A stretch of DNA of 64,000 nt. Source: Dichotomocladium elegans (Eukaryota; Mucoromycota; Mucoromycetes; Mucorales; Lichtheimiaceae). The position numbers and the translations under genes are program-made. The stretch spans positions 248,001-312,000 of the forward strand of contig JAIXMN010000016.1 of assembly GCA_025716815.1 (NCBI GenBank). Reading direction: 5' to 3'. The notes beneath the pieces were generated by a model. It was not told where the DNA came from. It was given only the letters and a program-made list of their open reading frames with translations, and did not search any database. How positions within the stretch are numbered: the first letter of the stretch is position 1; the number at the start of each line of letters is the position of its first letter. This document shows, piece after piece, positions 10,099 through 64,000 of the stretch.

Positions 10099-11481
10099 TG
10101 TTCAAGACAACACAAGAAAAGTGGAAACGAAATCGGGTTGTTTAAGACACTCAACTCTCACTTTCCCAAGTTCTTTGGTGCCCTTTCGCAGACTTTGAAA
10201 TAAGTTTGTGCGACACCATTAACGGATATCGATGTTTAAATATCTCATACACGGAAAAAGATGTCGCACAAAGGGCTTATGAACTTGGGCAGAGCCATGC
10301 TGTCGATGGCTATGGCCAGTTCACAAGATCCAGATGTAACGACATCGCTAAATATCAGCTGAACCGTCTGTTTACCGGCCCTTTCAAAGAGTATAATTAG
10401 TAGAAACTATGAAGACATGCACAGATTTGTAGGACTTCTCTATCCATTAACCTTTAAACACGCCCAATACACGCCTGTCTGTGACCTCATCACAGACGGG
10501 CACACCAATTTCAGATAGGATCAGCAAGCGATGAACATCGCAGCATTGTTTATCACATAGTCATCGCACCGCATTATGTATTTTTCCTGGTTCAAGCTGC
10601 TTTGTTGTGATTTCCTATAGATAATGAACAGCCCGAGGAATCTAGTTCCTTCATCAAGACCATCCTGAACACACTCTTCCATATCCCTATGCGCTATAGT
10701 CGCTATAATACTCCACTGTAATCTAACATCCATTCCTCTTTGTAGATTGTCCATCGTACCGGTAGCTGATGATCAATGGAAGAGAGGATAATTTCTGTGT
10801 CCCTCAGATGGGCCTGGAATCTAATCTCATATGTATATGGGAAGGAGTAATGTTTTCTATTGACTAAAAGTAAAAGTAAAAGATGGTGCATTCTGAAAGG
10901 CATATCTCGTTGTTGCTGTAGCAGTATAGGGAACAAAGACGCTCGAAGGAAAAAGGATAGAAGGGCTGGGCCCTATGAATCTTTTGCAAATAATATCCGA
11001 ATGGCCCTAAACAGGCAAGAGAATGGACATATAGTATTTTCTAGGAAAGCATATGCCTTGGCTTATCGAAAACGATAGATAATTTGTCGTAGATCATGCT
11101 ATGAAGCGGAGTAGCAAAGAAAAGCGGTGATTTTTGTTTATTTCCGTTCCATCTCAACGCGTTCACCGAGGAGACGCCAACCTTTGATTATGTCCATACC
11201 AATGGCCTACTTAGGAAGAAGAAATACCCCACTGCACTAATTAGAGGAATTGATGTAAAAGATCTTGTACTATGCGTACATTTTGCAAGGAGAGTGGGAA
11301 TATGCAGGGTGATGGTACCGATCTCCAAAAAAAAAAAATCAGATAAATATACTTACCGCCCGATGCAGACGGACCGTATAAAAACGCAATCTGGGGCGGG
11401 GGGGACACAGACGATTGTTGTTATCTGATGGATTTACAATAAACACAACTCCCGTCCTTGCCACCTCCCTCATTCCTGACA
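10099..11481. other. Divergent promoter region between arrestin and LRR genes
   Basis: This 1.4-kb stretch separates two divergently transcribed genes. Minus-strand open frames at 10521-10936 (for example YEIRFQAHLRDTEIILSSID and WTIYKEEWMLDYSGVL) look slightly protein-like and could be exons of a small gene or a relic. I could not connect them or recognise a family. A poly-A tract lies at 11327-11338. Confidence 0.4.
11377..11384 (+). promoter_or_regulatory. TATA box for the LRR gene
   Basis: TATAAAAA lies 98 bp upstream of the LRR gene's ATG at 11482, followed by a G-rich patch and then an AC-rich leader. The spacing fits a fungal TATA-driven promoter. Confidence 0.5.
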
Positions 11482-43476: not shown

Positions 43477-45124
43477 AAGTATGCGAACTTCCTTAAAATC
43501 CCCTCTGCTTGACATACGCCATTTTTCTTTCGCATGCAATAAGCATTCTTCCTTTCACAAGCTAGTGCTATTAAAATTACTTGTCTCCCTATAGATTACA
43601 ATCATACAATAAACGTGTACGTACTTCATATTTTCCTCTGTATGAGGTTCCACTATATTATTTGCCGCTCACATGGTTCTTTATAAACTAAGAACCGTTC
43701 CCACACTACTAACTCGCAATGTCATAGTGCTCCATCGTATAAATTGTACTCCATTCCAACGTCTCATGAAGCTCAACATCCATTCATTTATTGGCACTTC
43801 TTTAACGTGGACAAAAATATTAATAAGGTCATGTGATATCATTCATGTTTTTTATTCAGCACCGCTGACCTACTTGCTTATTAAGGGCTCCCAAGCTTAG
43901 TCACAGGCGAACTAGTGCGCACTGGCCGGTCTTTCAATGGCCTTGATATATTGATTTGCGACAACGGTTGAACTACTTGCGATCACCATTCCGCCAATTT
44001 GTATTAGGAGCGGATAATTCTTACCTTGTCCACAGATTACTCATAAGGTATGCATCTTTTCATGACCTGGTAGAGGAAATACGATCTTGATAGCAGCTGT
44101 AGACAGGAAGCAGTAAATATTGCTTGATACCACAACAACAGGATGTTTCTTGCAGCATGGGTAGCCATCAAAACCACCCATCAAAAGGCTTACTCGAAAA
44201 CCGATCCCGCCCAGCAAGCTGAGATCCGTTAATTCGATTATATTTCTATATATACCACCAACATCGTAAAATAAGAAACACGTACTTTATTTTCCAAAAT
44301 AAATTTCGGAAATGAGATAAAACAATGTCGTACAAAATACAAAATAACGACGCATAGAATCGTATAAAGTTGTCGTATCAATAGGTAAAACGATTTCGGA
44401 TCCGCGGATTGGAACATGTTAGACAACAAAAAAAACACTACCTCCTCTCCATACCCGTTAACTTACCGCCGAAGAGTAGTATGGGTGTTCTGGCGATAAC
44501 CAGGACGGAAGATGTGGAGGAGGCCAGCAGCGACAGGGGACGAGACCAGTGGCGGCGGCGAAAAGGAATAAAAGGAATGGAGTGGGACCAGAAGCGGCAG
44601 CGAAACGGAGCGGAAGGGTGTTCAGGAACTCCTCTCTTCCATGGCCCATCAAGCACGGGTAGATTGGTTAATCTAAAAAGGACAGTGGATGTTAAATTGC
44701 AATAAAAGAATTCAGTATTATAGTGATCATACCGGATAAGACCATGGAAGAGAGGGGCGGATGTAGTTATGAGAAAAGCAGATTGATCAACTGTCCATTA
44801 TTTATAGGAAATCAAGGATCATACTATACTCTTTTTGATGCACGTCTTTCATGCTTTAACTGATACAGAGCTTGAAAACGCCTTGTTTTAATCTTTTCAT
44901 TTCCGCCGCGTAAAAATACAATGCAGAAAAGGAATTGGATAATAGCATTCACATTTCTAAAGTTTCAGGTTTTGCTAACACAATCATCGCAAATGGTCCT
45001 TTAAATACCGATACTTTATAGTCTTCAACATCTACAGCTACTTACAACTCACATTCAAAAGTAAGTTTCTTTTATCAATGGTTAGACATCAGAAACCGAA
45101 ATATTTGGTCGTCCCGGTACAGGC
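43477..45124. other. Region between NAPE-PLD-like gene and Fanzor relic
   Basis: No intact gene. It contains a fragment of the dispersed exon/intron cassette (44262-44660, listed separately), then about 450 bp of AT-rich sequence before the first Fanzor codons, where a promoter for the Fanzor gene would lie. Confidence 0.5.
44262..44660 (-). repeat. Copy 1 of a dispersed exon-1/intron-1 cassette
   Basis: On the minus strand a pyrimidine-rich, coding-like segment ends in a GTAAGTTAAC donor at about 44460, followed by intron-like AT-rich sequence with the ATTTTGGAAAATAAAGTAC block. The same order occurs at 51960-52215, where it is the first exon and intron of a multi-exon gene, and in weaker form at 48420-48650. 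Here the rest of the gene is missing. Confidence 0.6.
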
Positions 45125-47262
45125 ATGTCTTCACCCGCTACATCAACTACGAGTGTCTCCAGCATTCGCGATGTCAGTGACCGAATCCTTTCAGTGAAGT
45201 GTAGTATTCAAAGCATCGGCTGGCGAGAAGAGTACCGTGAGCGGTTACTAGAGGTGGTCGATATTGCCAATGCCACAACAGTGCACGCGTTCTCCTTCTC
45301 AAAGTATATCTTCCTAAATGAACTTCAAACCAACCAAGACTTCGACATTGCGATCTTCTTGAACAGCCGTTTTTTTTTCTGAAGTATGGCTCTCTTTAGT
45401 CTAATACGAGAGACGTGCACTTAGATCGTCCATCACGGTCAGGAATCGAGCTCTGATCAACGAGTACTTGCCTGGATATCTCCACCATCCAAATTACATG
45501 AGGCCATCTTTTCCGCATCCACAGTAATGCTCGATATATGAAGGCCGCAATATAAATGCAGCGTACAGCAACAATATCAACATGCGATTTGGTCAGCATC
45601 TCAGACGTGCCGTCAATACTTTGCTGGACATTCGACGTCAAAAGGCTATAATTGAAAGAGACCTGCTCGATCAGGGTTTGAGCACCGAAGAAATAAGCGC
45701 CGGTATTCTGGAAACCGTGATCGAGCCTGCCAGGCGCGTCAAATTGGCAATTAGTAGCCGACAGATTAACACAGATCTCATCAGGCATCAATCAGATGTT
45801 TTCGGGGAGGCTTTGCAGGCCCTATTGTCTGTTCTCACCTCTTATCCTGAAGGCTACAGATTCCAAAAAGACAATATCTACTACGACAGCAAGTCCCGCC
45901 CCGCCAACCACATGAAAGCCTTTTACCAGCTCGCTTGCTTGTTTCAACGTCTCGAATTACCTGCTTTTAATTGTTTCTCACTTCGTCTCAGATGGTCCCC
46001 ATGTTATATGTTTATCGACAGCAAAATGCTTTGCCAAAACATTCCGAAACGATCTTGGAACGATGATGACGAACTCGTCCACTTGGATTATTGGTATGAG
46101 GTAGTTGACCTCAATTCAAAAGCTTTCAGGCCCCAGAAAGAAGGCGATCTCATGTTCCGTGGCATGATCAGTACAGATGTCGTTGGGGTTACTGTATTTA
46201 AAAAGCTGAGAGTATCGCCGATGGTACCCGCGATACCTCTAAAAGCAAACAAGGAGCTTATCCCTTACATCATAAGCCTGAGCCGGGCGGGTCATGAAGA
46301 AATATCAGGTCGAGGTGTAGCCGTCGATCCAGGCCGACGAGACCTTATGTACTGCGTGTACGAGGAATCAACGAATATCGCGCCTCGACTGTTCCGGTAT
46401 ACCAACTCCCAGCAGGACAAGGCACGCAAGAGCAAAAAGTTCCGTCGGTTGAAGCAGCTGCACAAGGTGCAACAACCTGAAGTTGCATTTGCGGAGCACT
46501 GCCTGTCTGAGAAGCGAAGCCGCACACTGGTTCTGGATGACTTCCGCCGCTTTCTTCATGTAAAGGTCCGAGGTGTCCGACGTTCTCCAGGGGTTTTTAT
46601 AGTCATACCATGACCGACCACATGCCCCAAGCCTTTCTCTTCCGAAAACTTCTTCTGTCAGCTTATTTCAACAAACAACTCGCTGATGTCAAGCTTGTCC
46701 AAGACTTAAAAGTTTGGCAGCACTGCAGTCTTCATTTTCGGGAACTGGTCAGCACCTATGGCTCAATTTCCATGAGCCCATAAGTGGCAAGGGCTTCAGG
46801 GAACTCCTGCAAAAGCATGGATTCGAGGTGTACCTAATAGACGAGTTTAAAGCAAGCAAGTACTGTCCATCCAACACCGCCAACAACAGCAGCAACCGCG
46901 GCCCCATGTCCTTTGCCACGGTCTTTTGAGGTATGAGACTCATTCTTGCGTTTTTTATGTATTCGAAAGCCTAAGGAATTCATTGACCTCTGTACTGTAG
47001 ATGTCACAGCGAAAATTGCACACTGCGCACCGAAGACAGCAGTCCAGTACGTCGGATTTGGAACCGGGATCTTGCCGCTTGCCTAAATTTTATCCATATC
47101 ATTCACTGTCTGCGTGTTACCGGTCAAGTGCCAGAAAGCTTTCGGAGGACCGTTGTCCCAGAAGGCGTCGACAGACAGCACCTATATCACCGAGTACACG
47201 ACGGCGGCAGTGATATCATATATAAATATAATAAACATATGCTCCTCACTGAAGGTTTATCA
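45125..47262 (+). pseudogene. Decayed Fanzor (eukaryotic TnpB-like RNA-guided nuclease) gene
   Basis: The N-terminal part (45125-45382) is helical, with WREEYRERLLEVVDIANATT and FSFSKYIFLNELQTNQDFD. The core frame from 45528 to about 46590 reads HMKAFYQLACLFQRLELPAF and later GVAVDPGRRDLMYCVYEEST, whose Asp (46326-46328) fits RuvC-I. Further on come VYLIDEFKASKYCP (RuvC-II Glu, 46843-46845), then in another frame PRPHVLCHGLLR, a 70-nt intron (46931-47000), and CHSENC, forming the zinc ribbon, then RRIWNRDLAACLNFIHIIHC (RuvC-III Asp, 47068-47070). These signatures are those of Fanzor1/TnpB nucleases. Damage: a frameshift at the T9 run 45370-45378, in-frame TAA at 45402-45404 and 45525-45527, and frameshifts near 46590, 46711, 46768 and 46871. 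The gene cannot give a full product as it stands. Its 3' end abuts a Tc1 fragment. Confidence 0.85.
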
Positions 47263-47264
47263 AG

Positions 47265-47745
47265 GTCCTTTTCATACTGTAATGCCCATTGCTGTTTTTG
47301 CGCGAACATAGACCTTCTCTTTGTCGATGCGCATTGCGTGACCGCGCTTAAAGTTTGCTACTTTCATCTGAATCCTTTCGTGTGGGGATATGCGTAGCAA
47401 TAAGGTCAAGGTCACCCTTGCAAGATGGACTACGTAGAATACTCTGTGTGAAAACAACCGGATTGAAGAGAGTACATTTCCTCTTCAACGGCAGCCACAC
47501 TCATCAACAACACGGCCTTGCCAGTCATTGCTCATTTCAGACTGTAAAATGGGTATGAAAAAGCAAGCTAATATTTTTAGACAAGCTTTTTTTGTGCGAC
47601 ATCTTTCGCCGTGCATGCGACATTTGCTTTGTCATCATGCGTAAATATTTCTGGTCAAAACCCGACTTCTATTTTGTGATCTCGCGACTTCAGAATTGCC
47701 AGGACACGACTTCAATTTTGGAAAACGGGGTATATTTAGCGAGGA
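47265..47745 (-). mobile_element. Truncated 5' end of a Tc1/mariner (IS630-type) element joined to Fanzor
   Basis: About 480 bp align with 53130-53595, the N-terminal codons and outer end of the better-preserved Tc1 relic. Shared blocks include TAATGCCCAT, GAGAGTACA and TTTGTCATCATG, plus a repeated CGACTTC motif near the outer end. Only the start of the transposase frame (minus strand) remains; the catalytic part is absent and the Fanzor 3' end lies in its place. Internal deletions are present, for example between about 47310 and 47330. Confidence 0.75.
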
Positions 47746-49702
47746 ACTGGACACCTTGTGGGTAAACACCTTGAATACGTTACGACTACGTATTTGAGCC
47801 AACCTATGCATAACCTATAATGAACAAGGTCCAAGCCGTCTTGATGTATTCATTATAAGCGACATAGAGTATGGTTCAGATTGCAAAATTAAGACTTCCT
47901 TTAATTAACTTGTATTTCTAAACGATTAGATTCGAAGAAACAGATAATGGTGAAAAGATCGACACAAACAAAAACCTGGCGCTAACAAACCTCTTCACCA
48001 TAGCGTAAAATGAGGGACATAGCTACTCTCAGGTACCCTACATCTGTGGATGAGAAATGTCTGGCCTTCGCGTATCTATGGTGCGCCATTGCTGGGAGTG
48101 GGAAGTGTGTAGTGCACAGATAAATTCGGGCGCTTCATGCGAACAAGGTGTGCTTATAGTGCCTCATGGATACCGTTGTCTTGGTGAGCCATTGCCCTCT
48201 AACACATGTACACCTTGTATACCTGCCATTATGCAGATGATGCCTTGCTGGTTTGATTACCTTCAAAGGATATATATAGCGGTTGCACTCCATCTACCTG
48301 ATATTCAGCACCCACGGATGAAGATTATGTAGGCTGCATGTAGCAGCAGTTACAATGATGTGCCTAGAAATGCCTGATGGCTAGGAAAGAACCAGGATAA
48401 TGTCGGACTGTCTATCCTAGTTTATTTCGAAAATATATTTCATATATATACAAGATAAAATATTGTCATTCAAAGTATGAAGAGAATGTTGCATAACATC
48501 ATACGAAATTGACATCATCAAGTAAAAAGATTTCGTTAGTCAACAAAAATATTCACCCCACGCCATATACTTTGACTTAACAAACCAATTCACACCAGGC
48601 ATATCTAGATGTGCACGTGATGATAATCATGGCGGAAGAGTGGCTTGAGGTATTTAGGAATATCCGCGAGGTAATGGTTCACGCTTATCGATCTTTTGCA
48701 TTCCCAACCTCAAGGAAACGGAGAGAATATCTAGTTATAATATCTCTGTTTGCTGCTTCGGATTTGAACACACCATCTTTCTTATCATACCCGGTGGCTA
48801 TGGTGGTCTCAAACTATATTGAGATGCTCCCCTAATATTAACATCAATTTTAAGGCTGTGGTTATCTTGGCTCTTGATCTATTATCCTGTAACCACTGCA
48901 CGCGCAAAGCCTTCCTGGGCCAACGCGACTTCGACTCCAGAAATGGCGAGACGCAACCTTCACTTGGAGAAGCTTATATGTCGTATGCGTGCATTAGATC
49001 ATGGAAACGGCGACATAAATCCTTTCAGCCTTACTCCCTATTGGGAGTGCTGTCTGGATGTAACTTTCGATGGGTACATATTTATTTATTTGCCTGCTTG
49101 GTCTTCAATACTCAGTGGTCCTCGACTTCCCTAGCATTGCGGTACACAATTCCCTACATAGTTTAGAGATTGATTGTTTAGAATACATTGTTTAGAACAT
49201 ATCTCTGAAATCCCCGTACCTTGCATGTTAACATGGTTTCAACTGCATGTGGGAGCAATGGGAGTTCTTGCGCATTTTTTGGAAGGCTGAACGATCCCAT
49301 CTCGATCATCCTGTATAACGGCGCGTATGTTTCATCCATCTGATACAGGGTGCAATCATACCCTAATATTTTGGTTAGAATCGCACGCTATGTATTCGGG
49401 GATGGCACAAGCTCGCACACATTACCCTGCACAAGTAGACCACATGTCTGGGAGCTGGCAATATTTAATGACCTTAATACCGTCATCATTGCTTTCATCT
49501 GCTTCCCCAGTTTAACTCGGTCTTCGCAAACGTCGTCATCATCGTTAGCCTTGGTTGGAGGTTTGATCTCCACCGAAAGGAGATATACAACCCTCTTTCC
49601 GGGTTTTGTTGCCGCTGAGATGAATGGGTTAGAGAGATATGAAAAAAATATCTCTCTTTTATAATAATTCTATCAGAACGGCGATGCAAGTGCTTAATCC
49701 TG
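47746..49702. other. Accessory intergenic region with repeat fragment
   Basis: No intact gene. A diverged copy of the exon-1/intron-1 cassette lies at 48420-48650. Open frames at 48819-49166 show short protein-like runs but no recognised domain. The rest looks like eroded repetitive sequence. Confidence 0.4.
48420..48650 (-). repeat. Copy 2 of the dispersed exon-1/intron-1 cassette
   Basis: Shared with the 44.3-kb and 52-kb copies: an AT-rich block with TTTATTTCGAAAATA, then TTTCGTTAGTCAACA, ACCCC and ACTTAAC elements in the same order. The exon portion is mostly eroded (ATGGCGGAAGAG near 48630). Confidence 0.45.
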
Positions 49703-52215
49703 TTAGGACGTATCGGATGAGAGCATTCTCTTTTCATTGTCCTCTTCAAGACCAGTGATGGATTCTAAAAGTGTCTTCCACATTTTTGGCATTAGTTGCC
49801 GACAGCAATCTCGGGGCACTATGACGAGAGCAAATAAGCCAAGCACTTCCAACTTGAAAATAAAGTGTGAATACCAGCGATGTAATACGTCGGCAAAAGC
49901 CAGCAGCTCCTCGCCTCCGTCATCACAGGCCTCTAATAGCCACCGAGCAGTTTGTGCTTTGCACTCAATGAGTGATAACTTCGGAACAGCAGTATTTACC
50001 TGAAATATTGATGATGATGAATATTGACACATTTCAACGGAGATATCAAATGTTCATCAGCTAATTGAAACCGTCAGTCATCAGATTGGGGACCGAAGGC
50101 TGGATGCTTGAGAGAACCAAGATGCTTGTTTCATCCGAAACTGTCAGGAATAGGCGAGGATCAAAGACCTGGATCCTCCCTAGCAGCAAGAACCATCTTC
50201 AAGATTTTTGAACACCACATGAACCCCTTCGTAGGAAGTGTCCGTGTTGGAAGAGTCGGCAAAGTGCTGATCACTTGTGTGCATAATTCGTCCTCGAAGT
50301 ATTGCAGCACTGACTGATTCAGGGTATGTGAAAACAGGAAAATGTGACTTAATGCCCTGGAAGGAGAAATCTGTCTGGTATAAAAATAATTCAACTTACA
50401 ATTCACGAAAGTCAGGGAGGTTCTTACTATGCTTCTTGACTGAAGCATCCCGCACTTCAACAATTTCTTGGATATGTTTTCTCCGTCAACAACCACTAGA
50501 CTCGGATAAAACTGATTTAACAGCTACAACAGCACTAATGTAGTGATCGCCCGTTATAAATGATACGCTTAGTTTCAGCTACATCATGCACTAACGAACG
50601 GGAATAACCCCCGCCGATCAAATCGGTTCCCTGTAATATGTATCACTATAATGGGCGGTCATGTCATACCGTTCGCATCGTACTCCGTAATTATCGCTGA
50701 CCTCAGGATCGTCTGTCTCGCTCCTTTTCCTTTTTTTCTTCTGCCTGCTACGGTATTCTCCGCTCGAGATGCTGGGGTCGCTTTCCTCCTCGCCAGAATC
50801 ATGTCCGCGCTTTGTCGGGCTAAGCAAACAAGTTGTACAATAATAATTTGCTTAATGTCTTTAGGCCCGCGACGAGTGCAGTGTATACATACCAGATTGC
50901 TTTCAGTTCTCTTGCTCGTCTTTGAATTGCGTCTGCAAGAAACGTGGAAAAGCCGGCTTGGGTTTGGAACCCAGCAACCTTTTCCTCAACAGCAGCAAGC
51001 CCTACTTTATCCCGTTGTGTGCTCCAGAAGTTTCTATTGACAACATCCTTATGTGATCTCTAGCAATGCCGTTTCCGATTAGTTATAAGTTAACAGACAG
51101 GTGAATAACGTTACGAACCGCCAACTGATTCTTCAATCTTTTCAACTTGGAAAGAACGAAATTATTCCCTTCATTACGCTCTAGCATAAGTTTGATTTGC
51201 GCGGCAAGTTCGCGATGAGCAAAAGCCTTGCTTGCACTTGGGTTCTTCTTCAAGAACTCAAAGTCGAAATCTGTCATTTCCCACTGTGTGATATCTTTAT
51301 CCCAGTAGGATGCTGACGATAGGAAAAATATGACGCTGTTTAGTAACAGAATGTTTCTATACATACTGCGATTACAACTCACTTTCACTCAAGGAACTTG
51401 GCTGTAAAGACATTGGAGGAAGTAGTTGGATACTCACAAAGGGGATTTGAACTGTTACGAAATTTATCAAGTTTATGGCCTAGGACCAGTAGGGAAAATG
51501 GATATCCATATATAGAAGAGTAGTCATTATGCTGTCATCCACAGACGCCGCATCAGAAAACCACCAAGTTGTCACAATCAAGTCAAATTTTATGAGTATG
51601 CAAACATTATAGTGTTATCTCACCTTACTTGAAGGTCTGCCAGATGGATTTACAGGAGACGAACTACCAGCTTGAAAGGTTTCAGACAATGGGCAATCTG
51701 CCTTCAACATTTGTCGCAGTATTACTTGTCGAGAGATGGATAGATGGCGATGAAAGTGAATGATTACCTATAGCCTGATATTCTTCAAGCAGAGCTAGTC
51801 TAGATGCCTCAAAAAGAACTTGAGGTGGGGAGGAGGGATATGTGCCGAACTCTAAGGCAATAAGAACTTAATTGGCGTCCAGGAGCCGGCGGAGGGGTGG
51901 CACAATGGTGATAGCAGTGATAGAGGCACTAGTCAAAGAGTAGCGGTAGTTATCATCTTGTGTTTCTGTACTTTATTTTCAAAATAAAATGTCGCATGCA
52001 TAAGAAGGCCAAGACATACCCGTTAGTCAACAGAAAATATCAGCCCCCTTCTTACTCTTTAACTTACCCCGAAGGTATCCAGGTGTGCCATTGCGGCAAC
52101 AACGGCGGAAGGGTTGGAGGAAGGAACGAGGAGGGACGGCGACAACACCAGCGGCAGAAGCATCGGGGGAAGCAACGGAGGAAGAAGACGAACAAAAGCA
52201 GGTCGACGAAGCCAT
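49703..52215 (-). CDS. Uncharacterised multi-exon gene (repeated Mucorales-type family)
   Basis: I recognise no function. Exon 1 starts at 52215 (MASSTCFCSSSSSVASPDA) and ends at a GTAAGTTAA donor near 52067. Likely later exons on the minus strand read VLFEASRLALLEEYQAI (about 51770-51820), LRQMLKADCPLSETFQAG (about 51660-51720), PSSLSE, YWDKDITQWEMTDFDFEFLK and KAFAHRELAAQIKLMLERN (51130-51320), NRNFWSTQRDKVGLAAVEEK (about 50990-51040), a basic patch SRQKKKRKRSETDDPE (near 50720), and a last exon with LSLIECKAQTARWLLEACDD and LPKMWKTLLESITG-like sequence ending at 49703. The stretch 50040-50600 is hard to read in one frame, so the gene may be damaged. Orphan copies of exon 1/intron 1 nearby suggest a multicopy family, perhaps carried by a mobile element. 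Confidence 0.45.
51955..52215 (-). repeat. Copy 3 of the exon-1/intron-1 cassette (in gene context)
   Basis: Contains the Ser-rich first exon, the GTAAGTTAA donor, the TTGACTAACGGG block and the ATTTTATTTTGAAAATAAAG block seen at 44.3 kb and, in part, at 48.5 and 62.1 kb. This is the copy whose downstream exons can still be traced. Confidence 0.6.
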
Positions 52216-52328
52216 GGTGGGAGACCTGCGCATATGCAACCAAATCACGGTCCCACTCAAAATCCATATCCTCTTCTCTCGACGCATTGAGTTAGGCTGA
52301 TATCGTTAGCTACAGAAGATCCGGAATA

Positions 52329-53409
52329 TTACAAGATTGCAGAATCGAATAAGGTTGACCCATGGCCTTTTACTTTGCTCTTGATAACTGACCAAAACTC
52401 TTCAATCGGATTGAGCTCAGACGAGTACGGTGGAAGATAAGCACATCGATATCCTCGACACTCGATGTATGTAGAGATATCCTCAGCCTTATGGATAGCT
52501 GCATTATCCATTACCAAATAATGGCCCTTCATATGTTCACACTTATCCATCTCGTCCATCGTAGCCTTAAGGAAGCTGAGATCATGTCCAGTTACAGCTC
52601 CTCCGTTCGTAACTTCTGTTTGACCTGCCCTCTTTCTTTCCTTGTTTGGTGGCTGTGGAGAGTCTCTAGCTACATTTAATAATCCCTGATCCTAAGATTG
52701 CCGTTGTTTTTGCTCTTGTCTTGATATTGTGACCATTGCAGGAATCCCTTTCTTGGACCATGCCATGCTGCATTTCATATTAATATAGGATCCAGACTCG
52801 ACAAGGGAAACGCAATTTTCTCTAAAGTCAATGTCGGTCCTGTCCCATTTGCGCACTCGGTCAAGGCGCTCTTTTGGATCTTCGCAGCGCAATTCCTGTT
52901 TAAGGATGAAACCGAGCCTACTTTAATGACAAGTTTCATAAATTGATGGAGCGTCGTTTTGGATATTTTGAGATTCTCAGATCTTTGGACCAGTTGTTCC
53001 ATCTGCTGCTCTAGGACAATGGATGGATTCTCATCAATGCATTATCAAATGACGTTCTTATGCTCTTCATTAAGAATACGAGAACGATCCCTCCTTTAGG
53101 TTTGTTAAAAGTGCTTTCAATGTCTTTCTCGTATTTTAATGCCCATCGCTGAGCTGAACGAACATGGATTCCTAGCAGCTGATACACTCAAAACCTCTCA
53201 AACATCACTTTGAAAAATCTGGCCTTGTCTTGGTCAGTGTACGCTGTGTAATTGCGCTTGATCCCCGCTTCTTTCATCCTTTCGCTTGGGAATGTGAGTG
53301 GCAGTAAGACCAGAGTTATCTCTGCAAGATATGCTACGCAGATATTCAGTGCGAAAACAAACGGATTGCGGAGAGTACACTTCTTCATCAACAACATGAC
53401 CTTGGCCAT
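52329..53409 (-). pseudogene. Tc1/mariner (IS630-type) transposase, inactivated
   Basis: On the minus strand an N-terminal segment has KRNYTAYTDQDKARFFKVMF, then an in-frame TGA (53188-53190), then GIHVRSAQRWALKYEKDIES (helix-turn-helix), ENLKISKTTLHQFMK, the region with ENCVSLVESGSYINMKCSMA and WSKKGIPAMVTIS, and the C-terminal DDE part GHYLVMDNAAIHKAEDISTY, YRCAYLPPYSSELNPIEEFW and SVIKSKVKGHG. The last two carry the second Asp and the Glu (DD34E spacing). The first catalytic Asp is replaced: the usual LDES motif reads LVES. Several frameshifts separate the pieces. The outer end continues to about 53600. Confidence 0.85.
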
Positions 53410-53600
53410 CTTCGTGGGAAAATGGGTTAATCATTTCAGAATGTAAAAGTGTATAAAAGAGATGGAAGCGACATGTGACATTTGATTTGTCATCATGGGT
53501 ATTCTGGGGCAAAACGCAGTTTTTATTGTTGTGATCCTGCGACTTCAAATCCAAAATCGCTGTGGCAGACGGGAATGCATAACCCACCGTATCTGTTCTT
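53410..53600 (-). mobile_element. Outer end of the Tc1 relic
   Basis: Leader and terminal region of the transposase element. It matches 47560-47745 beside the Fanzor relic, including TTTGTCATCATG and GCGACTTCA blocks. I could not define the exact terminus or a TA target duplication. Confidence 0.6.
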
Positions 53601-61652: not shown

Positions 61653-63373
61653 GATCTAGATTCAGCCAACGTTACTAAAGCCGACAACAACAACGGTGTT
61701 CGCGATACTCGGACGATAGATACAGCCGGGGTGGTCAAACAACCGAAATTACCCATACCATGGAAAATAAGCACGCTGTGAATACCATGTTTGTAAATTC
61801 TGAGGATTCAATTTCCATTATATAATGCGTGCATGCAACGAAGTGCAGGCATATTTATGTATCTACAATTAGAAGTGGTGTTGATATCTGCTGAAGAATT
61901 TATGGTTTACAGTTTAAGGAGCCTAAACAGTCTTCGACATTGCTCTCGGTCCCATGTCGTACGGTCACTACTCCATTCTGTAACTGCGTTTCTTACGTTC
62001 ATGCTATGATCAATATCTTATTACATGAAATGATCAACCAGATTTTCCATCCAAACAATGGTTCTCACTCTCGGACAAAAATATACAAATACCTGCGTAA
62101 TTATTCCTGATGTCCCATAGAAGCAGCGGCTAGTCTGTACTGTATTTTCAAAAAAAAAAAAAAAAAAAAACTTCGCGAGTAGGGAAAAATTATGTCATAT
62201 AAAAATAAAACAGATGGCATATCAAGGTGGAAAAGATTTCGCATGGTGTCAGGCGTCTACCAGGAAGGGCTAGATCACCAGAGCCCGATGAGCAAAGAGA
62301 GAAGGGATAATATCTTTCTTTATGACTAGCAACTCTCAACCATTCCCCGAAGACCGGTGCGAATATGTATCATATTCAGGCAGGCCGCCATATCCCGGTT
62401 CCCTAACCGCTGTCGCGGAGTGCCCTCTGCCGTGCATGCTATTATGCTGAATTTGACAGGTTATGAGCCGCGATTCCGGGCGCAAGGTCAAAGATCTTTC
62501 TGTGACCAGGAAGATCAAACGCAGTACTTCATTCTTTATGTTACCGCCACGATTGAATTGTATCCGCAGCAAGTCCAAGCACATGCAATCGCCCTCCTTC
62601 ATATATGCAGTGCTGTTAAAGATATTATTTTTTTGGTGTGTAACCAGGAAGAACACAGTAGATCTGACAATTACGACGATCCTGACTTTGGAACATCTAC
62701 TACAAGAGACCAGATCGCTGACATAGTCAACTTCTGCTATCTCACTACTGTCGGTTGCGTAGAGAATCTGTCAGAAAATTAACATTGCCGGATATGTACA
62801 ACATTGAGCTGGAGCGCAAAGGTCCGGCATCATGCTGGCTGTGGATCGTCTTGCAAGATTGCTGACCTCGATGGTGTGTGGGCCGATGGAACAACACACT
62901 GATGAAAGGGGCACAGCTAAGAACTCTTCTGTGTGCCTTGGCTGCTGCCTTTCCCTCACATAAGGCCAACTTTTTCTACCTCATGCTGCTATTGCTCCTC
63001 CAAACCTGTGCGAGAAAGTGTTTCCAAAGATCGACCATTGAACTGAAAAGATCGCACCAACTCATATCTCTGCCGCTGGTTTTCTTGCGATTACTCCACA
63101 TCCTTCAAGGTGCGGTTATCATACAGGACAAGCGCCCACAACGTCAAATGTAACCATCACGAAGTTATATGCAATGTTGGTTTTTTACCTATCAATATAC
63201 ATACTATGTTGACCACCGTAGAATTATCACAAGTCGTATCATAGTTCTCCCCCATGACAACAGTTAACTAGATACCTGCAATAGTGAGAGACGAATCCTT
63301 CGAAATTGCTCAGCTTTAAGCTATTCAATGCTTCACTGGTTCAGGACATCGATGTCTCGCATTCTAAAGACCT
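61653..63373. other. Accessory region with cassette fragment and unassigned ORF
   Basis: Contains a poly-A run of about 22 bases at 62150-62171 and a fragment of the dispersed cassette (62130-62260). A 141-codon plus-strand frame at 62357-62782 (with YFILYVTATIELYPQQVQAH and TTRDQIADIVNFCYLTTVGC) looks protein-like in its second half. It could be an exon or relic, but no family is recognised. No other coding signal. Confidence 0.4.
62130..62260 (-). repeat. Copy 4 (intron part only) of the dispersed cassette
   Basis: Shares the CTGTACTGTATTTTCAAAA start, ATGTCATATAAAAATA and AAAAGATTTCG blocks with the copies at 44.3, 48.5 and (first block only) 52 kb. No exon portion is visible. Confidence 0.4.
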
Positions 63374-64000
63374 ATTACGTTTTCTTTTGCTCTTCACAAC
63401 CGATCAAAATTGTTCAATACGTTTGATTTCAGGCGAGTAAAATGGAAGATAGCCGCATCGAGATCCTCGATGCTCGATGTATCTAGAACTATCCTCAGCT
63501 TCATGAATAGGTGCATTATCCGTTAGCATCTAATGGCCCTTGATATATTCATATCCATTTCATCCATGGCAGCTTTCTTAAAGCTGAGATAATGTCCCTA
63601 TATAGTTCCTTTGTTTGTAGTCGTGAAGTGCCCCGCTCTCTTTTTTTTTTTTTTTTTGTTGGTGGCTGTGGGAGTCTCAAGCTATATTTTAATACCTGAT
63701 GATGAAATTGCTTCCAAGACGGTAGTTGTTTTCATTCTTGTTTTTGGCACTGTAACTACTGCATAAATCACTTTCTTGGACCATGTGATGCTGCTCTTGA
63801 TGTTAATATCCAATCCAGATTCATCAAGGGAAGCACAGTTTTTCTAAAGTCAGTGTCAGCCTGTTTACATGGATTCATTTTTTATAAATTAATGATGCGT
63901 CGTTTTCGATCCCCTCAATTGCTCTAGGATAATTGACGGATTTCCATCAGCCCACTCTCAAATAGCACTCCGTACTCTTCCTTGAGAATCCGTGAACGAA
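63374..64000 (-). pseudogene. Second Tc1/mariner transposase relic, truncated by the window edge
   Basis: Aligns with 52363-53000 in the same orientation. On the minus strand it reads DNAPIHEAEDSSRYIEHRGS and RCGYLPFYSPEIKRIEQF followed by a stop where the family has a Trp, so the DDE domain is broken. Further frameshifts and a 17-T run at 63641-63657 follow. The N-terminal part lies beyond position 64000. Its age looks greater than that of the 52-kb copy. Confidence 0.75.

Follow-up and report, generated by a model that had tools for sequence, protein, structure and literature searches.

A dead Fanzor1-bearing Tc1/mariner-type transposon in Dichotomocladium elegans, its open relatives, and a covarying hairpin RNA near the element end that is probably an omegaRNA

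Why eukaryotic transposons keep a Fanzor gene is a question on which the genome of the mucoralean fungus Dichotomocladium elegans bears. The locus that raises it lies in C31:248001-312000 of this 39.4-Mb genome, a stretch of 64,000 nucleotides that is called the window throughout, where the initial annotation had read a decayed gene for a Fanzor RNA-guided nuclease. The transposon, the transposase and the RNA hairpin described here go beyond that reading, and a search of the open-licence literature found no paper on a Fanzor in D. elegans.

Sequence matches confirm the earlier claim: the gene is a Fanzor1 that has decayed in the nuclear genome of a fungus. When the four open pieces of 45086-47397 were queried separately against PDB sequences, the best match of all four was Parasitella parasitica Fanzor 1 (9cf0), a structure solved by cryo-EM, reached by the main piece at 45528-46613 (E 2.7e-46) and by those at 45086-45382 (1.6e-9), 46687-46929 (4.9e-6) and 46987-47397 (8.1e-6); the Spizellomyces Fanzor (8gkh) matched the main piece at 4.4e-10 and the piece at 46687-46929 weakly, at 0.13. 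In the profile search proposed earlier, Pfam and NCBIfam assigned no Fanzor/TnpB family to any of the pieces. Two Pfam matches to pieces, DUF459 (0.09) and AEP-TOTE (6.6e-4), fell under their own cut-offs, and the Cas12f1-like_TNB model, run against the whole genome, gave three weak matches, one of them above its cut-off. As to the extent of the gene, read at first as 45125-47262, the start stands, being an ATG, but the end lies nearer to about 47250, where the Fanzor frame runs into an antisense transposase relic (Table 1).

Most of the finer claims about the relic hold as well. All three RuvC motifs are readable at the places given in Table 1, and the short intron inside the zinc ribbon is in phase, with introns of 69 and 56 bp at the equivalent site in families B and D. 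Of the four cysteines claimed for the ribbon, the second of the first pair is lost in the window; in families B and D the RuvC D/E/D residues and the ribbon cysteines are complete. The lesions are borne out: a T9 slippage run at 45370, two TAA codons (45402 and 45525) that fall in the main piece's frame, frames that follow each other in the order 2-3-2-1 and, by our reading of the window against its relatives, a fourth break inside the zinc ribbon. Both TAA codons are absent from 16 aligned relatives, the second site being gapped in one of them. The T run is of equal length and in register in six copies of the window's own family, A (the window, L005, L006, L014, L018 and L020), with base changes in L018, and is shorter or longer in the other family A copies; either the six copies inherited one old break, or slippage has recurred.

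Table 1. Features of the element, its RNA and neighbouring relics in the window (strand: +, forward; -, reverse;., none assigned)
Feature	Position	Strand	Basis
Entire dead element of Tc1/mariner type with Fanzor1 (family A, 3446 bp)	44285-47730	.	homology among copies stops here; end motifs in register with TA
TA, presumed target-site duplication, distal side	44283-44284	.	end pattern
TA, presumed target-site duplication, transposase side	47731-47732	.	end pattern
Distal (non-transposase) end with inverted repeat	44285-44470	- (outward)	79-83% identity to five family B distal ends
Intron-like spacer, putative function	44285-44466	-	GTAAGT 44466-44461, CTAAC 44422-44418, AG as last two element bases
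C(UUCG)G loop of possible second small hairpin	44469-44474	-	read by eye
7-bp hairpin SL1 of candidate omegaRNA	44487-44506	-	compensatory changes in 7/7 pairs over 20 varied sequences
Fanzor1 relic in two exons, broken several times	45125-47250	+	PDB sequence matches, frame comparison
RuvC-I motif VDPGRRD	46323-46343	+	read in sequence
RuvC-II motif LIDEFKAS	46834-46857	+	read in sequence
GT..AG intron, 70 bp, in zinc ribbon	46931-47000	+	in phase
RuvC-III motif WNRDLAA	47059-47079	+	read in sequence
Transposase N-terminal relic, residues 14-181 of 475	47244-47607	-	tblastn E 7.6e-9
Transposase-side end	47595-47730	.	at least 40 genome matches among those listed, own included
Third RNA copy, another relic	48517-48653	-	RNA model E 1.8e-16; in training alignment as L037
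Second RNA copy, Fanzor-less transposon relic	52004-52126	-	RNA model; in training alignment
Transposase relic of Fanzor-less transposon	52290-53482	-	sequence match

The relic is part of a larger dead element, the ends of which were set by BLAST among copies. Transposase-side ends read TA-CACC/CACT..TTTTCCAAAATTGAAGTCG and distal ends TA-CTTTATTTTCCAAAATAAATTTCG, both alignable in register from the TA; the right end of the window element matches, reversed, the left end of family B elements, its left end matches their right end, and in the search of the window against five family B copies the distal end aligns whereas the Fanzor DNA does not. A TA in register, with inverted repeats or alignable end motifs at both ends, is the pattern by which Tc1/mariner elements are recognised, and it is on this TA pattern at both ends that the presumed target-site duplication rests. 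A transposase frame from elsewhere in the genome (L061), the sole full frame run against domain profiles, belongs to DDE_3 (E 1.8e-30). On these sequence features the element is classed as Tc1/mariner of the DDE_3 type, the window copy holding an N-terminal relic of the transposase only. Subterminal repeats are present at both element ends, and the number of a repeat of about 22-26 bp differs among the near-identical distal ends of family B (L030, L031, L084, L098, L103). Among the transposase-side ends counted (40 of 52 listed, 12 being left out as distal ends), CA precedes the TA in 16, as against 7 of 43 distal ends; none of the CA-type transposase-side ends comes from family A or B, which mostly have TA at this position, and they include L061 of family D as well as L047 and L070, which stand beside family C Fanzors.

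Other remains of the group lie nearby. A second dead transposon, devoid of a Fanzor, occupies 51971-53482 with its distal end at about 51971; a third relic of the same transposase family, at 63260-63972, is 67% identical over residues 370-469 and 45% over residues 192-370; and a short piece on the reverse strand at 62347-62439 matches the family B Fanzor over residues 624-654, with 61% identity (E 2.8e-4).

The main frame of the window copy finds at least 120 Fanzor matches in the genome, at no fewer than 106 places when merged at 3 kb, both counts being lower bounds. Family A, delimited at roughly 57% identity or more, has stops or frame breaks in all 17 copies compared, the window included; the expectation of the initial annotation that intact relatives exist elsewhere in the genome came true through long open frames in other families. 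By our count, at least 24 of the 120 listed rows match from residue 1 or 2 to residue 339 or beyond and have a stop-free frame of at least 600 aa, all 24 belonging to other families that are 42-47% identical over the piece searched; an open frame in such a listing is no proof of a whole gene, since one of the 24 (L026) has a break close to where it begins. Family B, about 43% identical to the window's family, encodes a 709-aa Fanzor over two exons, as in the element of about 3.9 kb at C35:1969004-1972906, and the copies compared are 96-99% identical. Seven of them were examined, and the six with equal exon-1 frames differ by 8 non-synonymous and 20 synonymous changes, where neutrality would give about 21 to 7 (2.9 to 1; P 4e-7), a P value that is too sharp because the copies share descent, with the direction still clear: the family B Fanzor is under purifying selection. 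The 722-aa protein of family D matches 9cf0 (E 3.2e-125) and 8gkh (1.3e-38) in the PDB, and its DPGRRD, DEYKTS and WNRD align to the equivalent motifs of both. This Fanzor (L082) also has a long RG-rich tail, which matches the RG tail of SmD1 in the PDB; the tail of the family B Fanzor is R-rich and shorter.

The nuclease and transposase genes are found in two relative orientations. In families B and C the Fanzor is co-directional with the transposase and has its 3' end toward the distal end; in families A and D it is opposite to the transposase, with the distal end upstream of it in A and expected there in D. One element on C57 has both genes unbroken, the family D Fanzor (C57:1660071 onward, forward strand) facing a transposase frame of 475 codons (C57:1663210-1664634, reverse strand). 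A locus on C44, set in different flanking DNA, shares 2.75 kb with it at 98.2% identity; the shared part begins at the transposase-side end and reaches the 3' part of the Fanzor, after which an insertion interrupts it, and this likeness points to a joint move of the pair. A host reading frame of 356 codons has its stop codon about ten bases from the C57 element (L061, at about C57:1664700).

Near the distal end, about 150-240 nt inward, the elements share a 7-bp hairpin (SL1) whose pairing is kept while its letters change. Its arms are GTCCTGG/CCAGGAC in family A, GCGTCAG/CTGACGC in B, GTGTCGG/CCGGCAC in C and GCCATTG/CAATGGC in the Fanzor-less elements, in which the hairpin is also kept. For a first alignment (A2) 36 RNA places were cut out and L016, L023 and L059 left out; its 33 sequences, 15 of them from family A, have double changes in 6 of the 7 pairs (44 double-changed cells against 14.1 +/- 3.5 in shuffled alignments). 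A more varied set of 20 sequences (A3, with L059 and a single family A member) has them in all 7 (31 against 10.6 +/- 2.5), a count that none of 500 shuffles attained, and the pairing is lost on sliding by 1-3 columns. Rows found by the strict motif search lean toward pairing, because that search demanded it; L022, L028, L046 and L047 (fuzzy search) and L043 (model) were found with no such demand. An RNA model run over 83 sources gave 55 matches that reach E 0.1, of which 33 are training places and several others near-identical copies; the window has three strong matches, at 44400-44526, 48517-48653 and 52004-52126, each a training-set place, and a further one stands at 10795-10884 (E 0.051). 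Rfam, searched with 44200-47800, returned one match, far under its gathering score (E 3.7). RNAalifold recovered SL1 alone from A2. A second small hairpin, closed by the loop that is written CTTCGG in 19 of the 33 and 7 of the 20 rows, and a pseudoknot between the SL1 loop and GGUAA are possible readings by eye, the changes in the pseudoknot being one-sided only.

What could this RNA be? According to the part of PMC11423790 that bears on it, SL1 has seven base pairs in the Gt, Spu and PpFz1 omegaRNAs, and the PpFz1 omegaRNA as a whole has 75 nt, with the 7-bp SL1 followed by a 4-bp SL2. Since these three solved guide RNAs of Fanzor1 begin with a 7-bp stem-loop, the covarying hairpin is, by analogy, probably an omegaRNA that Fanzor would bind. 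The loop-closing pair, which is U-G, U-A or C-G on the outward strand in 20 of 20 rows, favours that strand, as does the C(UUCG)G loop where rows have it, so that the RNA would read outward.

The window holds a dead Tc1/mariner-type Fanzor1 transposon, and we consider it probable, though well short of certain, that its live copies use an omegaRNA at the distal end, with a guide from the flank, for retention by cutting. A DDE_3 transposase, supplied in cis or in trans, would move a live element between TA sites; Fanzor1 would bind the omegaRNA, the scaffold of which begins with the 7-bp hairpin and the guide of which would be flanking host DNA; and the nuclease may then cut the site that excision has emptied, or the homologue that lacks the insertion, upon which repair would copy the transposon back. 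In favour of this, the hairpin starts 19 nt past the Fanzor stop codon in a family B copy on C35. Against it stand the distance of the hairpin from the end, where the SpuFz1 scaffold of 75 nt adjoins its guide, the Fanzors of families A and D, which point away from the distal end, and the counts of G-U pairs (12 versus 15 cells), which are neutral on the strand. In addition, the equal T-run length of six family A copies at a frame break means that this lineage may have spread after its Fanzor broke, and, if so, Fanzor in cis was not needed.

One addition to the omegaRNA reading, which contradicts nothing in it, is splicing of the omegaRNA precursor. An intron of the spliceosomal type, from GTAAGT just past the second small hairpin to the terminal AG, would take out the 80-180 nt that form the transposon end and bring the scaffold directly next to the guide in the flank; we advance this tentatively and hold it to be unlikely as matters stand. 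GTAAGT follows SL1 on its 3' side in 25 of the 33 and 12 of the 20 sequences, and does so in families A, B and C despite their differing surroundings. CTAAC, which is the fungal branch-point consensus, occurs in at least 21 of the 33 and 9 of the 20, lower bounds as some rows are cut before it. Among 26 distal ends with a CTAAC-like motif, eight have no AG between the motif and the terminal AG (four from family A, the window included, two from family C and two Fanzor-less), seven, from family B, have one AG only, 2-6 nt past the motif, and the other 11, most of them dead copies, have at least one in the zone; that all 26 finish in AG is partly by choice, because the pattern used to find the ends includes it. 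Splicing would leave family A with some 40 nt of scaffold, counted from SL1 as far as GTAAGT; the PpFz1 scaffold is similarly short. On the other side, 8 of the 40 transposase-side ends finish in AG too (25 do so in TG), and this end is AG-poor as well: two of four controls had 2 AG each, where 6.9 and 8.6 were expected. The acceptor, AAAG, is weak, AAG being a poor splice acceptor, and the branch point lies far off, 80-140 nt being a long distance for one; GGTAA, moreover, might alternatively serve as the pseudoknot partner of the SL1 loop. An RNA-guided transposon that employs the host spliceosome to make its guide RNA, with an intron ending exactly at the transposon boundary, thus remains on these sequences a speculative proposal that we would sooner doubt than accept. 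If true, splicing would be a new route of guide making that uncouples transposon ends from guide scaffolds, and it would go some way to account for the inversion of the nuclease gene in families A and D without loss of the guide. A spliced Fanzor or TnpB guide RNA is absent from the literature listings examined and from the main text of PMC11423790, PMC10432273 and PMC10711439, where words for introns and splicing are missing or unrelated, as are words for splicing in PMC3627910.

A little less credible again is that the hairpin is no guide RNA and that Fanzor uses another RNA; the hairpin would then belong to the transposase gene, as a structured 3' UTR or an antisense RNA, or serve as a DNA hairpin in transposition. 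It would fit with the hairpin being in the sense of the transposase wherever both could be placed, with its persistence in Fanzor-less elements, with the direction of the Fanzor in families A and D, away from it, and with the neutral G-U counts. Yet its position in the family B copy, 19 nt downstream of where Fanzor stops, and its 7 bp, the published length of SL1, speak for a guide RNA, and a sequence bound as DNA is expected to keep its letters and not only its pairing. Persistence in Fanzor-less elements has a precedent among guide RNAs, too, for in Spizellomyces punctatus, as far as the available part of PMC10432273 tells, the omegaRNA runs across the element end on the downstream side of Fz, and ghost loci that have lost Fz keep a similar RNA.

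That the window holds a single dead Fanzor relic of no further interest, with ordinary transposon inverted repeats at its ends, agrees with the dead state of this copy and with subterminal repeats at both ends, such as transposase binding sites would give, but is very improbable in view of the 106 or more places, the open families under purifying selection and the covariation of the hairpin.

With the omegaRNA reading preferred, the value of this genome is in what it holds together: near-identical open copies of family B, a locus with nuclease and transposase both unbroken, RNA copies that lack a Fanzor, and a family that is dead. Whether Fanzor helps its transposon to persist can thus be tested in one organism.

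IStrons are linked to TnpB. Combining a group I intron with an IS (PMC4227781, in part), they resemble the present elements in joining splicing signals to a transposon and differ in that their intron is self-splicing, whereas the spacer here would be of the spliceosome type and sits at one end only. Closer relatives are found among the Fanzors themselves. PpFz1 (9cf0-9cf3) is likewise a Fanzor1 from the Mucorales, is the best match of every piece of the window gene and has the 7-bp SL1, but carries in its RuvC domain the cyclophilin-binding FRI insertion of about 100 aa, which the available part of PMC11423790 reports from Parasitella and Rhizopus only. The family D Fanzor is without it, its alignment skipping residues 987-1095 of the PpFz1 chain; the family B Fanzor, at 709 aa, is no longer than that of D at 722, the absence by alignment applying to family D alone.

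SPu-1 of S. punctatus is alike in its putative TA duplications, in the CA conserved before its left inverted repeat (the SpuFz1 TAM is CATA), in an omegaRNA at the end downstream of Fz and in the many RNA copies devoid of Fz; it differs in that no transposase was found between its repeats, that its scaffold adjoins the end directly and that the RNA is downstream of Fz, as far as the parts of PMC10432273 and PMC3627910 at hand describe it. The Fanzor1 Tc/mariner elements PGv-1, PUl-1 and PUl-4 have, like those described here, TA duplications and mariner TIRs (Bao and Jurka 2013, PMC3627910, in part), and some elements of the PGv-1/PUl type encode Fanzor1 with a mariner-like transposase, others Fanzor1 only. 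High copy number is in print as well in that source, which gives about 150 loci for the Chlamydomonas element CRe-1 and a copy number of about 150 for the red algal CMe-1A, and diverse transposase partners of Fanzor1 are on record in the available part of PMC10711439. As Fanzor1 mariner elements with TA duplications, with or without a transposase, are thus already described, the window element is of a known kind. The Mucorales Fanzor elements in the seen part of PMC3627910 are MuDR-like or unclassified, whereas those of D. elegans are of the mariner type; what seems new, on the sequences compared, is a mucoralean mariner family with its nuclease-transposase pair, its two gene orientations and its covarying end RNA with an intron-like spacer.
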